The notes: generated by a model not told the origin, from the sequence alone. DNA of 64,000 bases from Alphaproteobacteria bacterium (GCA_014382345.1 JACNJX010000042.1:1-64000), one strand, 5' to 3'. Shown: positions 16,914 through 55,283, counted from the stretch's first letter. Program-made: numbers and translations.

Positions 16914-17675
16914 TCACGTCTGCAAAAACCTGACCGCGTCACCTTCCAGCACCGCCGCCGTCAGGACACCCGACTGCCAGGCCCCGGTGTCGATGCCGAT
17001 GCGGTTGAATTTGACCTCGGGCTCCGGGCTGATGGAGTGCCCGTGCACGACGCGCGCACCGTGGTTGGCGTCGGAAAAAAGAAATTCGTTCCGAATCCAC
17101 ATCAGGTCGTGGGGGCTTTGTTCCTCAAGGGGTACCCCAGGCGCGATGCCGGCGTGCGCGAACAAATAGGCGCCTTCGGTGTGAGATATCTCCAGCGCCT
17201 GCAGAAATGCGCGGTGCCGGGCGGGCAGGGTATGGGCCAGATTCCGGCACAGGCGTTCGGGCTCCGGCAAGGATAGAAAAATGTCGGAGACCTCGATGCC
17301 GTAACTTTCAAAAGTGCCGCGGGCGCCGTTCATCAGCCAAGCATCAAGCCCGCCGCCGGTTTTCAGAAACCGGAGCATCATGTCCTCGTGGTTGCCCTTG
17401 AGATGGTGGCGTTCGAATCCGTCGAGGGGATGGTCGATCAAAAGGTCAAGAACGCCGGCGCTGTCGGGGCCGCGGTCGACAAAATCACCAAGGTAGACGA
17501 CGACCTTGCCGAAGCTGTCCGCATCGGCGGCGTCTTCGAGTATTTGCCGGTGCAGGCGTTCCAGCAAATCCCTCCGTCCGTGGATGTCACCGACGGCATA
17601 AACGCGGCGGCCCCGGGGTGTTTTGGCGTTTCCGGCGGCCGATACGGCGTTCGGGTTCTGGCGTGACTTGGTCAT
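16914..17675 (-). CDS. PPP-family metallophosphoesterase (Ser/Thr phosphatase or Ap4A-hydrolase-like)
   Basis: A 253-residue calcineurin-like phosphoesterase. All PPP motifs are visible: [20 protein letters not shown] and GNHEDMM, with later metal-ligand His in [10 protein letters not shown] and VVHGHS. Bacterial members dephosphorylate phosphoproteins or hydrolyse diadenosine tetraphosphate; sequence reading cannot separate these. The start ATG 17675 (MTKSRQN) is preferred over a TTG at 17714. It is divergent from the tandem EAL-like genes and 82 bp upstream of the UDP-glucuronate decarboxylase gene. Confidence 0.85.
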
Positions 17676-17745
17676 CTCTGGCAATATGATGGACGGGTGC
17701 GTTCCCTGCCGCAAGGCGGGCTCTCATGTGCCGGAATATCCCCTT

Positions 17746-17833: not shown

Positions 17834-19558
17834 ATGGCCGATCTCGGTTACGCGAGCGGCGAATACCGCGAGGCGGATACAAGCGAAGAAAGCTTGCTGC
17901 TGTCGCGCCTCAAGCGTGTTGAGGCGAATCCAGGCGGAGTGTACGCGGTGCATATCCACCTGTCGCAATTGCGCGCGTCGAATCGCCAGCCGCATTTCCT
18001 CAATATCGCGATCCGGTCCTTCGACGGGCTGATGGAAAATTACGAGGCCACGGCCTTTTCCCTGCATAACGGGGACGTGGTGCTGATCTGCCGCAACGTG
18101 CCCGTGGACGACGCGGACGCCGCCGTCGACAAGGTGCGCTCGCTGTTCGGCGGGGATCCTTTGCTGTTGGTCGAGGACGGCGCGTTCGAGGATTCCTTTT
18201 CGACCTGGTACGACCTCAGCCAGCCGGAGGACTTTTCCGCTTTTTCCGCCATTGCCAACGATCTCGCCGTCGAAGCCCAGCGCGTCCTGCAGTTGCAGGC
18301 GGAAGTCAAGGTCAGGGAAGACAAGGAACGCGGCGACCCGCTGTCGTCGCTCAACCTGGCCGCCATCAATCAGAATCTGCAGGCGACCCGCGTCGCCGAC
18401 CTGATCCGGCTGCAGACCTGCCTGGAAATGGGACCCGGCGGGCCGGGCCAACTGGTGTTCAAGGAACATTTCATTTCCGTGGGCGAGCTGAAGAAGCGTA
18501 TCGCACCGGAGGTCAACCTGTTTGCCTCGCCCTGGCTGTTCCAATACCTGACGGAAACCCTGGACCGGCGCATGCTGGCGGTGCTCGGCAACAAGGATTT
18601 CAGCCTGCTGCCGTTTACCATGAGTCTGAACCTCAACGTCAGCACGGTGTTGTCACGGGACTTCCAGAAATTTCACCAGACCGTCGGCAAATATACCTCC
18701 AAGGTGGTGGTGGAAATGCAGATCCTGGATATTTTCTCCGACATGAACACTTACGGATATGCCCGCGATACCCTGCAGGAACGGGGCTACCGGGTGGTCG
18801 TCGACGGCCTGAATCCGCTCGCCCTGCAATTCATGGAGCCGGGCCTGCTGAAATCCGACTTCGTGAAAATCAACTGGGATTCCGATTATGAGGGCGAGGT
18901 CGACCCGGCCCGGATCGAGGACATGCGCCACGTCATCGCGACCACCGGCAAGGAAGGCGTGATCCTGGCCCGCGTCGATACGGAAGAGGCCATCAAGTGG
19001 GGCCTGTCGCTAGGCATCAGCCGGTTCCAGGGGTTCTATGTCGATGACCTGATGGAGAAAATCGCCGACGTCAAAGCCCAGCAGGCCAGGAACGAAGCCG
19101 CCGCCAAGGCCAAAGCTGCGGCAGCCGCCGCCGCTGCCGCGGCAAAGGCGAAAGCGCCAGCCGCTGCCCCCGCCGCCGCCCCCGCCGCCGCGCCCGCGCA
19201 ACCGGTCTCCGGGCAACCGGCGCCTGCTCCGATTCCTGCCCAGCCAGCGCCCGCCCAACCGGCCCAGGTGCAGCCTGTGCCCGCTCAACCGGTCCCTACC
19301 GCTGCTCCCGCGCAACCCGTTGTTCCGCAACCGGCTCCCGCACAACCAAGGCCCCCAGCCCAACCGGCTCCCGCGCAACCGAGGCCTCCAGCCCAACCGG
19401 CTCCCATTGCAGCGCCCGCCCAGCCCGCCCCGGCGCAACCGGCCCCAGCGCAACCGGCACCGGCACAAGCGGCCCCAGCCCGACCGGCCCCGGCCCAAGC
19501 GGCCCCGGCACAACCGGTTCCGGCTCATCCCCAACCCAAACCCGCACCGAAGGCCTGA
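17834..19558 (+). CDS. Degenerate EAL-like protein with a long Pro/Ala/Gln-rich C-terminal tail
   Basis: A 574-residue protein without signal peptide or membrane segment. Residues about 15-150 form an N-terminal domain (VHIHLSQLRASNRQPHF) that I do not recognise but which is repeated in the next gene. Residues about 195-410 follow the layout of an EAL phosphodiesterase fold: MSLNLNVSTVLSRDF, VVVEMQILDIFSDM, GYRVVVDGL, FVKIN and GISRFQGFYVD. The catalytic EAL Glu, the DDFGTG loop and the AEGVE Glu are all replaced, so hydrolysis of c-di-GMP is not expected. From about residue 415 an Ala/Lys coiled stretch leads into a tail of PAPAQ-type repeats. The next gene, a paralogue, starts 3 bp after the stop. 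Confidence 0.8.
   Translation: MADLGYASGEYREADTSEESLLLSRLKRVEANPGGVYAVHIHLSQLRASNRQPHFLNIAIRSFDGLMENYEATAFSLHNGDVVLICRNVPVDDADAAVDKVRSLFGGDPLLLVEDGAFEDSFSTWYDLSQPEDFSAFSAIANDLAVEAQRVLQLQAEVKVREDKERGDPLSSLNLAAINQNLQATRVADLIRLQTCLEMGPGGPGQLVFKEHFISVGELKKRIAPEVNLFASPWLFQYLTETLDRRMLAVLGNKDFSLLPFTMSLNLNVSTVLSRDFQKFHQTVGKYTSKVVVEMQILDIFSDMNTYGYARDTLQERGYRVVVDGLNPLALQFMEPGLLKSDFVKINWDSDYEGEVDPARIEDMRHVIATTGKEGVILARVDTEEAIKWGLSLGISRFQGFYVDDLMEKIADVKAQQARNEAAAKAKAAAAAAAAAAKAKAPAAAPAAAPAAAPAQPVSGQPAPAPIPAQPAPAQPAQVQPVPAQPVPTAAPAQPVVPQPAPAQPRPPAQPAPAQPRPPAQPAPIAAPAQPAPAQPAPAQPAPAQAAPARPAPAQAAPAQPVPAHPQPKPAPKA
19340..19405 (+). repeat. Two tandem 33-bp units in the Pro/Ala/Gln tail
   Basis: Units at 19340-19372 and 19373-19405 differ at only a few positions and both encode AQPRPPAQPAP. 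Shorter PAPAQ-type units of 15 bp follow up to about 19500. The in-frame repeat length means copy-number change would alter tail length without breaking the frame. Confidence 0.8.
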
Positions 19559-19561
19559 TCC

Positions 19562-20857
19562 ATGGCAACGGCACCGGAAATTCAATCGCAAGCCCAGGAA
19601 AGCCTGCTGCTCGACTACATGCAGCGGCTGGAAAAGCAAAAAGAGGGACGCAAGGTGGTCCATCTGCACCTGTCCCAGCTCCGGCCAATGAACCGCCGTG
19701 AGCAGCATCTGCGCACCGCCGCCAGCAATTTCGATTCCCTGATCTCGTCTCTGGATGCCCAGGTGTTCTCGGTGAAAAACGCCGACATGTTCGTGATCTA
19801 CAAGGACACCGCCCATCCGCAGGTGGAAACCTCGGTGCAGCAGATCCGCTATTTGTTCGACGATGATCCGCTGGTCGCGGAAGAGGATCACTCGGATCAG
19901 AAGTTCGCCACCTGGTACGACGCCGAACAGGACTTCGATGCTGTCCTGCACACCGTACAAAACCTGGCCCAGGCCGAACGCAAGCGCCAAACCGAAGTGC
20001 GCGGACGCATGGATGCCCGCGCCGCGCTTAAGGCGAAACAGGATATGGGCGAACCGTTGACGCCAAAGGTGCTGGCGCGGGTCGAAACCGCTCTGTCCCG
20101 CGCCGACCTGTCGAACCTGGTGCGCCGCCAGTACATCTGTCAGATCGACGGGCAAATGGTTCCCGAGCAGTTATTTTCCGAACTGTTCATTTCCATCAAG
20201 GATTTGCGGGAAACCATGCTGCCGGACGTCAACCTGGTCGCCAACCGCTGGCTGTTCCAGCACCTGACAACGACCCTGGACCGGCGCATGCTGGCCATGC
20301 TGACGAAAACCGACAGCATTTCCTTTTCCGGCGACATCAGCTTCAACATCAACGTGGCGACCGTCCTGTCGCCTGAGTTCCAGGCCTTTGACGACAATAT
20401 TTCCGCCGGCCGGCGCGGCGCCATGATGATCGAATTGCAGAAAGAGGATATTTTTTCGGACCTCAGCTCCTATGTCTTCGCCCGCGAATTCGTGCAGGAA
20501 AAAGGCTACAAGGTCTGTCTCGACGGCCTGACCCTGGAAACCATTTCCATCATCGACCGCGAACGGCTGGGCGCCGATCTGGCGAAGCTGATCTGGCATC
20601 CGGACCTGGCCGACGGCGGCGAGGAAATGCACGAAAAAATCCGCACCCTCGTCAAGCGCGGCGGCGCCGACCGCATCATCATGTGCCGTTGTGACAACCG
20701 CGAGGCCATAGATTTCGGGCGTTCCGTGGGGATCGACCTTTTCCAGGGCCGCTATGTGGAAAGCCTCATCGCCGAAGACGGACGCCGCCTCGAACTGCTG
20801 AAACTGAAGCGCCGGATCGAGCGTGGCGAGGCGGAAGACTTCCTCGACGAGGGGTAA
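19562..20857 (+). CDS. Degenerate EAL-like protein, paralogue of the preceding gene
   Basis: A 431-residue protein clearly related along its length to the preceding product: VVHLHLSQLRPMNRR at the N-terminus, TLDRRMLAMLTKTDS, ISFNINVATVLSPEF, KEDIFSDLSSYVFA and GIDLFQGRYVESL. Again no EAL motif, no DDFGTG loop (CLDGLTLE instead) and no AEGVE motif (MCRCDNRE instead), so it is probably catalytically inactive. It lacks the Pro/Ala/Gln tail. No signal peptide or membrane segment is seen. With only 3 bp between the genes, the pair arose by tandem duplication and is probably co-translated. Possible roles are c-di-GMP binding or protein scaffolding; neither is shown. Confidence 0.8.
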   Translation: MATAPEIQSQAQESLLLDYMQRLEKQKEGRKVVHLHLSQLRPMNRREQHLRTAASNFDSLISSLDAQVFSVKNADMFVIYKDTAHPQVETSVQQIRYLFDDDPLVAEEDHSDQKFATWYDAEQDFDAVLHTVQNLAQAERKRQTEVRGRMDARAALKAKQDMGEPLTPKVLARVETALSRADLSNLVRRQYICQIDGQMVPEQLFSELFISIKDLRETMLPDVNLVANRWLFQHLTTTLDRRMLAMLTKTDSISFSGDISFNINVATVLSPEFQAFDDNISAGRRGAMMIELQKEDIFSDLSSYVFAREFVQEKGYKVCLDGLTLETISIIDRERLGADLAKLIWHPDLADGGEEMHEKIRTLVKRGGADRIIMCRCDNREAIDFGRSVGIDLFQGRYVESLIAEDGRRLELLKLKRRIERGEAEDFLDEG

Positions 20858-20859
20858 CC

Positions 20860-21912
20860 CTATTCCCCGGTTTTACCACTGACGGCGGCATCTTCAAACG
20901 TCGCCATGCCGCTGTGGCATGCCGTCGCCGCTTTCAGAACCGCGACCGCCAGCACCGCGCCCGAGGCCTCGCCGAGGCGCATGTCCAGATCAAGGATCGG
21001 AACCATGTCCAGTTTTTCCAATAGCCGCCGGTGCCCGGGTTCGGCCGAGACATGGCCTGCCCGACAGTGCTCCAGCGCGCCGGGGCGGGCGGCTTCAAGG
21101 GCGGCGGCTGCGGCGGTCGCCACGTAGCCGTCCAACAGCACCGGCACCCGGCGGAACCGCGCCGCCAGCACCGCGCCCGTGATGGCGGCAAGCTCCCGCC
21201 CGCCGAGACGGCAAAGACTCTGCAACGGGTCCGGGGCGTTGTTTCCGTGCAACGCGGCGGCCTTGGCGACGACGGCGGTCTTTTTCTCAAGCTGGGCACC
21301 CTGAACGCCGGTGCCCGATCCGGTCCAGTGCGCGGCGTCACCGCCGAAAAGCGCCATTGTGAGGGCGGCCGCGGACGTCGTGTTGCCGATGCCCATTTCG
21401 CCCAGGCACAACACGTCCATGCCGTCGCTGACCGTTCCCATGCCGAAGACGAAGGCGTCCACGCATTCGTCTTCCGTCATCGCCGGGCCCTCGGTGAAAT
21501 CCCCGGTCGGGCGGTCGAGCGACAGGGCGTCGATGGAAAAGCCGACGCCGAAGACCTGGCACAACTGATTGATGGCGGCGCCGCCGGCTTCGAAATTGGC
21601 CACCATTTGGGCTGTCACGTCTGCCGGAAAGGCGGACACTCCTTGCGCGACGACACCGTGATTGCCGGCAAACACTTGGGCTTTGGGCGCGCCCATGGAC
21701 GGCGGGTGACGGCCCTGCCAGCGGCAAAGCCACTGGCTCAATTCCTCCAGCCGGCCGAGCGACCCCGGCGGTTTGGTCAGGGTGGGTTCGCGTCCGGAAG
21801 CTTTGGCCGCGGCCGCGTCATCCCCTGCGGGCAGGGATTGCAGGGCGGCGCGAATATCGTCCAGGCTTTTGATGACGGGAGGGGACATTGGCGGGGATTG
21901 AAGGGAGGGCAT
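20860..21912 (-). CDS. cobT: Nicotinate-nucleotide--dimethylbenzimidazole phosphoribosyltransferase
   Basis: A 350-residue enzyme (CobT/CobU) that activates 5,6-dimethylbenzimidazole to alpha-ribazole phosphate for the lower ligand of cobalamin. Family blocks are TKPPGSLGRLEELSQWL (about 46-62), FAGNHGVVAQGVSAFP (about 80-95), LGEMGIGNTTSAAAL (about 170-184) and the C-terminal RLGEASGAVLA containing the catalytic Glu. The first ATG at 21912 has no strong ribosome site; an ATG at 21888 (MSPPVIKSL) is an alternative. It is convergent with the EAL-like pair, 2 bp apart, and divergent from cobS, which uses its product. Confidence 0.95.
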   Translation of the reverse strand: MPSLQSPPMSPPVIKSLDDIRAALQSLPAGDDAAAAKASGREPTLTKPPGSLGRLEELSQWLCRWQGRHPPSMGAPKAQVFAGNHGVVAQGVSAFPADVTAQMVANFEAGGAAINQLCQVFGVGFSIDALSLDRPTGDFTEGPAMTEDECVDAFVFGMGTVSDGMDVLCLGEMGIGNTTSAAALTMALFGGDAAHWTGSGTGVQGAQLEKKTAVVAKAAALHGNNAPDPLQSLCRLGGRELAAITGAVLAARFRRVPVLLDGYVATAAAAALEAARPGALEHCRAGHVSAEPGHRRLLEKLDMVPILDLDMRLGEASGAVLAVAVLKAATACHSGMATFEDAAVSGKTGE

Positions 21913-54362: not shown

Positions 54363-55283
54363 TTAAACGAACCCGACGGCACCCTTGCTGCTTTTCTTGA
54401 TCTTGTACATGGCCTTGTCGGCGGCTTTCAGCAGTTCGTCTTCTTGTTTTCCGTCGCGCGGGAAGAAGGCGATGCCGATGGACGCGCCGATGTTGGCAGT
54501 GCCATCGGGAGTCTCGATCGGCCGGCTCAGGCTTTTGACGATGCGCTCGCCGACGATGGTGGCGTTTTCGGTATTCTGGTGTTCGATAATGACGATGAAC
54601 TCGTCGCCGCCAAGCCGGGCCACCGTGTCGGGTTTGCGGATGCAATCGCGAAGCCTGAGCGCGACTTCCTTCAGTACGGAATCGCCCGCTTCATGGCCCA
54701 GGGTATCGTTGACCGCCTTGAACCCGTCCAGATCAATGAACAAAACGGCCATTTCCGTTTCCGCGCGTTCGGCCCGGTTCATGGCCTTTTTCAGGCGGTC
54801 GGAAAACAGTCGGCGGCTCGGCAGTTCCGTCAGGGTGTCGTAATTGGCCAGCATCTGAATTTTGGCTTCCGCCTCTTTCAGCTGCGTTACGTCGATAAAG
54901 GCGAACAGCAAAAGATCTTCGTCCTCGATGGGAATGCTGGACATGGACGCCAGCCCCCATATGACACCGCCGTCCTTGCGTTGCAGGCGCAGCTCGAAAT
55001 TGCGGACTTCATCTTTTTCGACGAATTCGACCATCAGGTTCTGGCGTTCATCGGCATCAACGAAGAACTTGTCCCAGGATTCGCCCAACACCTGTCCGCC
55101 GTCGGCACCAAGGGTTTCATGGAAAAACCGGTTGGAAAAGATGACCTTGCCGTCATCGACGCGCAGGACAAGGATGCCCGCCGGGACCGTGTCGTTGAAG
55201 ACTTTCAACTTCTCGTCATGGCGAACCATCAACTCGAAGGTGGAGGCCTTGTCTTCGGCGAGTGGGGTGCCCCCATTGGCCAT
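54363..55283 (-). CDS. PAS-GGDEF diguanylate cyclase
   Basis: A 306-residue soluble protein. An N-terminal PAS domain (about 30-145; LKVFNDTVPAGILVLRVDDG, FRNF-like segments) is followed by a GGDEF domain (about 150-305) with NYDTLTELPSRRLFSDRL, FIDLDGFKAVNDTLGHEAGD and the intact RLGGDEF active site, so it should make c-di-GMP. No membrane segment is visible. ATG 55283 (MANGG) has GGAGGGG upstream; the longer frame to 55334 is rejected. It is convergent with the large FecR/RTX gene and divergent from a small Cys-containing protein. Confidence 0.93.
   Translation of the reverse strand: MANGGTPLAEDKASTFELMVRHDEKLKVFNDTVPAGILVLRVDDGKVIFSNRFFHETLGADGGQVLGESWDKFFVDADERQNLMVEFVEKDEVRNFELRLQRKDGGVIWGLASMSSIPIEDEDLLLFAFIDVTQLKEAEAKIQMLANYDTLTELPSRRLFSDRLKKAMNRAERAETEMAVLFIDLDGFKAVNDTLGHEAGDSVLKEVALRLRDCIRKPDTVARLGGDEFIVIIEHQNTENATIVGERIVKSLSRPIETPDGTANIGASIGIAFFPRDGKQEDELLKAADKAMYKIKKSSKGAVGFV

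Follow-up and report, generated by a model that had tools for sequence, protein, structure and literature searches.

Our analyses have identified two adjoining genes, A and B, in the 64,000-nucleotide stretch of alphaproteobacterial DNA studied here (the window), whose products are paralogous soluble proteins that combine a degenerate GGDEF domain with a degenerate EAL domain. Degenerate GGDEF-EAL effectors are already known; what is new is an ancient, conserved pair of such pseudo-GGDEF-EAL proteins in which metal site 1 is the only metal site of the EAL domain to be retained. The usual assumption about catalytically dead GGDEF-EAL proteins is that they are c-di-GMP receptors. The family to which A and B belong loses what inactive receptors keep (viz. 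the Arg of the ExLxR motif) and keeps what receptors can spare (viz. the ligands of metal site 1), and this inverse pattern makes the family well suited to testing cleanly which functions are open to a degenerate EAL domain. No paper on the A/B family was found in the open-licence literature.

Genes A (positions 17834–19558, plus strand) and B (19562–20857, plus strand) are ORFs with ATG starts that encode proteins of 574 and 431 amino acids (aa), respectively. They are co-oriented and separated by 3 bp, A being the 5′ member, and their products are 38% identical across ~400 aa (E = 4e-79), in agreement with a preliminary description of this DNA, which had recognised them as closely spaced paralogues. 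In A, the degenerate GGDEF domain (17936–18340, plus strand; approximately aa 35–165, including the last long helix) is followed by the degenerate EAL domain (18344–19060, plus strand; approximately aa 171–409) and by a low-complexity C-terminal tail rich in Ala, Pro, and Gln (19079–19555, plus strand), which begins at about residue 415. This tail, recognised from the sequence and from the lengths of A in 38 pairs, is present in the genus and in one near relative, where A is 491–574 aa long, as against 413–446 aa elsewhere in the order. B consists of a degenerate GGDEF domain (19649–20011, plus strand; approximately aa 30–150) and a degenerate EAL domain (20048–20770, plus strand; approximately aa 163–403). 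The GGDEF domains are supported by model elements, structural matches (for A, those to full-length GGDEF-EAL modules), and the motif table, and the EAL domains by the fold match and the residue alignment, with a profile match in addition for B. No transmembrane segment was found in either protein (longest hydrophobic window KD ≤ 1.1), and in the models both chains begin just ahead of the GGDEF helix. A scan for promoters and terminators gave nothing above chance.

The Pfam EAL model (PF00563) scores 20.2 bits in A (E = 4e-4) and 21.0 bits in B (E = 2e-4), both under the gathering score of 31.3, and the same model matches 49 of the 55 B-type relatives at E < 0.01 (best 1.3e-10). Neither protein is matched by the Pfam GGDEF model (PF00990) or by any NCBIfam model, and surveys relying on these cut-offs would thus miss the window proteins. 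Pfam matches to DUF1192, DUF4342, CREPT, Amanitin, and CHASE3 were also obtained and were judged to be due to chance. A phmmer search of PDB sequences with B returned nothing, and the family profile was needed for a match to solved EAL domains (8pps, E = 3.7e-6).

Structures of both proteins were predicted with AlphaFold (AF2) from family alignments of 55 B-type and 36 A-type sequences, giving models with a mean pLDDT of 90 for B and 86 for A. The best structural match for both is LapD of V. cholerae (6pwk; Z 19.4 for A and 19.1 for B), and both models also match other whole GGDEF-EAL modules, viz. RbdA (5xgb; Z 18.1 for A in the structure search), MorA (4rnf), and PA0575 (5m3c). Many isolated EAL domains among solved structures match the two models at Z 15–18 (Foldseek and VIA); the EAL domain of A matches that of LapD (3pju) at Z 17.7 with an rmsd of 3.9 over 223 residues, and that of B matches the EAL domain of V. 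cholerae LapD (6pwj) at Z 18.2 with an rmsd of 2.9 over 219 residues. The rmsd is mostly 3–4 Å for the EAL domain alone vs. 11–21 Å for the full-length matches, probably because the two domains are placed differently relative to each other. The sub-threshold Pfam scores, the profile match to 8pps, and the predicted folds all agree on the EAL-type fold that the preliminary description had proposed, and profile HMM comparison and structure prediction both uphold the EAL relationship.

The N-terminal domain is shared by both paralogues, as had been noted, and it can now be recognised, where it had earlier been described as unfamiliar. In the A model it comprises strands (E) and helices (H) at E36–41, H53–69, E71–76, E82–87, H91–104, E123–127, and H131–166, and in the B model at E30–35, H47–62, E66–70, E76–81, H82–98, E116–120, and H125–150. 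The element order in the models, beta-alpha-alpha-beta-beta-alpha-beta-alpha, is that of GGDEF domains, and this order together with the matches of the full-length models to GGDEF-EAL modules, with whose GGDEF half the domain aligns, identifies the predicted structure as a degenerate GGDEF domain. The GGDEF position reads N79-G-D81-V-V in A and N73-A-D75-M-F in B; 125 of the 131 relatives retain the acidic residue at the third position, and none has the catalytic Glu (0/131). The RxxD inhibitory site is absent from A and B.

The state of the EAL domain was determined from a residue alignment of 131 members, which comprised A and B proteins, the single-copy homologues, and a group of more remote paralogues, and residues are given in the numbering of RocR, for which the roles of Q161, R179, E175, N233, E265, D295, D296, and E352 have been summarised (PMC7911125). 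The four ligands of metal site 1 are kept, viz. E175 (129/131), N233 (130/131), E265 (131/131), and D295 (130/131), as are K316, Q161, and Q372 (131/131 each). An acidic residue is found in none of the 131 members at any of the metal site 2 positions D296, D318, and E352, and the ExLxR Arg (R179) is present in 3 members, with Ser or another residue in the remaining 128. In the structure of PA3825, the ligands of metal site 2 are D161 and D183, joined in the presence of calcium by E217 (PMC5301497); by transferring the numbering, we infer these three to be the equivalents of D296, D318, and E352. The retained residues are Q194, E211, N266, E294, D324, K345, and Q399 in A and Q190, E207, N262, E291, D321, K342, and Q395 in B. 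At the changed positions, A has G325 at the second Asp, N347 at D318, A379 at E352, and S215 at the ExLxR Arg, and B has G322, I344, C375, and S211, respectively. All 27 intact EAL domains from relatives that served as controls carry both ExLxR and DDFG, the latter being the criterion by which they were selected.

The preliminary description had considered the EAL Glu to be missing from both proteins, but it is present in each, as E207 within E-L-F in B and as E211 within E-H-F in A. An hhalign comparison with the 27 canonical EAL domains was good over the C-terminal two thirds and slipped around the EAL motif, and the Glu was for this reason placed by the multiple alignment, its place inside the second strand of the EAL domain (E201–210 in the B model), the paired invariant Gln, and spacing, rather than by residue-by-residue superposition. 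The distance from the EAL Glu to the Asp at the start of the following helix motif is 33 residues, vs. 32 for a canonical neighbour (visual count), and the distance to the first Asp is 113–114 residues, vs. 119–123 in the controls. The loss of the DDFGTG loop that had also been reported is partial, in that it spares the first Asp (D324 in A, D321 in B) and affects the second Asp and the remaining loop residues, whereas the AEGVE Glu is indeed missing, its place being taken by Ala in A and Cys in B.

Further features are specific to the family. A near-invariant Trp follows the Lys, so that K-x-x-W stands in place of K-x-D, and the Gly of AEGVE is replaced by Arg. In B, residues 375–378 (window positions 20684–20695) at the AEGVE position read Cys-Arg-Cys-Asp, as they do in many single-copy homologues; C375 is found in 35 and C377 in 32 of 43 B proteins, and the first Cys is absent from A. 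This motif is a possible candidate for a metal or redox site.

The alignment thus shows metal site 1 to be intact and metal site 2 to be lost in essentially every member, a combination that makes canonical two-metal hydrolysis unlikely, and no homologue with the full set of catalytic residues was found among the 131 members. A and B are accordingly predicted to be incapable of making or hydrolysing c-di-GMP by the canonical two-metal mechanism.

Relatives of A and B were matched in 55 of 61 related genomes, and in 47 of these (counted by hand) the two genes adjoin; where the remaining genomes show a single copy, or copies on separate contigs, at least several of these lie at contig ends. The 38 pairs whose spacing was measured exactly all have both genes on one strand with A as the 5′ member, and −8 to 48 bp separate the two; this fixed order and tight spacing suggest a single transcript and translational coupling. 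The pair is retained across about 25 families. Most of the A and B proteins of the order form separate deep clades, with the single-copy homologues nearest to B, in what is a quick tree with many open forks in which a small number of divergent A-like sequences group in a separate clade. On the basis of these deep clades the duplication looks old, and the gene comparisons indicate that the tandem pair is ancient and that its two genes have stayed adjacent throughout a bacterial order. A has evolved faster and B more slowly; both are under purifying selection, with dN/dS of the two window genes against their nearest relatives at 0.07–0.21 (simple pairwise estimates, with synonymous sites near saturation in some pairs).

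The family is also widespread in Alphaproteobacteria as a class, with matches in 44 of 144 sampled genomes, usually as one copy that is mostly B-like and in a few cases as a tandem pair. A phylum survey gave matches in 5 of 199 genomes, the sole match beyond the class being at E = 1e-3, and at the sensitivity used there is no sign of spread beyond Alphaproteobacteria; viral contigs held no relative. The named relatives are marine Rhodospirillales metagenome bins, with distant homologues on Azospirillum replicons. A third, distant paralogue of 398 aa is located elsewhere in the genome (contig C54; L003:1468–2664, minus strand); it has the same metal-1-only EAL pattern as A and B, but with Arg at the ExLxR position. 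Proteins similar to it are present in many relatives, and three occur in a row in one of them (G015, L164).

The pair is flanked upstream by a divergent gene for a PPP-type metallophosphoesterase resembling Ser/Thr phosphatases (16914–17714, minus strand; Metallophos, PF00149, E = 2.8e-11) and downstream by a convergent cobT-like phosphoribosyltransferase gene (20860–21912, minus strand; PF02277, E = 2.3e-110). The phosphatase cluster is found at 29 of 42 loci in the order, always on the opposite strand and directly upstream of A, and by its position only the phosphatase is a candidate functional partner. The cluster of cobT antisense frames is found at 34 of 42 loci, and at two loci (L141 and L145) a cobT homologue is likewise situated no more than about 5 kb away. 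Single-copy homologues of other orders often lie near hldE, cobT, or a RegBA-like kinase/regulator, and polysaccharide export genes recur; this neighbourhood supports positional orthology and looks like general synteny that gives no functional clue. The genome encodes 8 GGDEF matches, 4 intact EAL proteins, and 6 PilZ proteins, so that c-di-GMP signalling is probably present. An intact GGDEF domain is also located within the window (54384–54848, minus strand; E = 3.5e-49), in a frame of 326 aa.

A non-catalytic role for A and B, which the preliminary description had proposed, is well supported by their sequences, viz. by the complete loss of metal site 2 and of GGDEF catalysis, the low dN/dS, and the conserved order and spacing; the c-di-GMP sensing named there as one such role is disfavoured, as the ExLxR Arg and E352 are both lost. 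Scaffolding, the other role named there, would be compatible with these data. EAL domains form dimers in many structures, and this general tendency, together with the conserved gene pair, makes an A–B heteromer the natural and probable reading. Our overall interpretation, which we hold with about even confidence, is that of a co-translated pseudo-GGDEF-EAL pair, probably heteromeric, which acts non-catalytically via protein contacts and has a liganded metal-1 pocket. A single mRNA would yield both proteins, which would work jointly and probably associate through EAL–EAL contact; like YdiV or CsrD, they would provide a platform for protein interactions or act as an adaptor, and a divalent metal or phosphorylated ligand in the retained pocket would have a structural or switching function. 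The EAL Glu being kept and the ExLxR Arg being lost favours such a role over c-di-GMP sensing. Three points temper this interpretation: pure scaffolding has no need of the near-invariant metal site 1, Lys, and Gln residues, which suggest that a ligand is still bound; by analogy with FimX, nucleotide binding may survive the loss of the Arg and E352; and relatives beyond the order manage with one copy, so that pairing is not intrinsic to the function of the family. A more specific proposal, which we advance only tentatively and regard as somewhat doubtful, is that c-di-GMP has given way in the metal-site-1-only family to a different ligand or to protein readout, and that one order has evolved an obligate A–B heterodimer with a division of labour between its two subunits.

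Loss of catalysis need not abolish c-di-GMP binding by an EAL domain, the decisive motif being ExLxR (PMC10333796, a review), and A and B could be receptors of the LapD/FimX type, with c-di-GMP bound by the inactive EAL domain and the signal passed on through the GGDEF domain. The best fold match is to c-di-GMP-bound LapD (Z 19), the equivalents of Q161, E175, K316, and Q372 are near-invariant, and c-di-GMP is probably present in the cell; nevertheless, such a receptor is unlikely in view of the loss of the ExLxR Arg in 128 and of E352 in all of the 131 members, the absence of a GGDEF RxxD site and of the HAMP or transmembrane part of LapD, and the different loss in LapD itself (PMC3032553). 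It is likewise improbable that the proteins are simply sensors of another phosphorylated ligand or of a divalent metal at metal site 1 (e.g., pGpG, GTP, another cyclic dinucleotide, Mn2+, or Mg2+). The retention of the four site 1 ligands, K316, and both Gln in 129–131 of 131 members despite divergence to 25–30% identity would fit such a sensor, and the K-x-x-W Trp and the Arg at the AEGVE Gly suggest a rebuilt pocket, but the site 1 residues could serve fold stability instead. An active enzyme with single-metal or altered chemistry on another phosphodiester substrate would accord with the kept site 1 ligands and Lys and with the one metal of early proposals for EAL catalysis (PMC5301497), but appears very improbable when E352, the AEGVE Glu and a conserved catalytic metal ligand, and D296 are missing in every member. 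That A and B are redundant duplicates in neutral decay, as the faster evolution of A and the low-complexity tail it gained in the genus could suggest, is not viable in the face of the deep A and B clades, the persistence of the pair across so many families, and the low dN/dS of both genes.

Among known systems, A and B resemble the canonical EAL phosphodiesterases (viz. RocR, PA3825, and RbdA) in fold, in the metal site 1 ligands, and in the equivalents of K316, Q161, and Q372, and differ from them in missing all three metal site 2 ligands and the ExLxR Arg. With LapD they share the same degenerate GGDEF-EAL two-domain module; however, LapD is a transmembrane protein with HAMP that reads KVL for EAL (Lys replacing Glu) and binds c-di-GMP (PMC3032553), whereas A and B lack a transmembrane segment, keep the EAL Glu, have lost the ExLxR Arg and E352, and are encoded in tandem. 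FimX, another strong fold match, has a degenerate EAL domain that keeps the EAL Glu as a metal ligand (Glu475) together with the Lys, and binds pGpG with four of ten catalytic residues (PMC3527489); it differs in keeping the ExLxR Arg (Arg479) and in its other domains, and the A/B family keeps the whole of metal site 1. In CsrD, an RNase E specificity factor, both domains are degenerate as in A and B, and among NCBIfam models the one for CsrD (NF008281) alone matches family members, weakly and in 7 of 55 cases (best E = 5e-6, 25.1 bits), far from its curated score of 663 bits and with no match to B itself. CsrD has in addition a membrane GAPES4-HAMP part for which A and B have no counterpart, and the E. 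coli protein does not bind c-di-GMP (PMC10333796). YdiV and STM1697 are gammaproteobacterial proteins that consist of an EAL domain without a GGDEF domain, and A and B are likened to them by description rather than by sequence, as catalytically dead proteins that neither hydrolyse nor bind c-di-GMP and act through protein contacts (PMC10333796).
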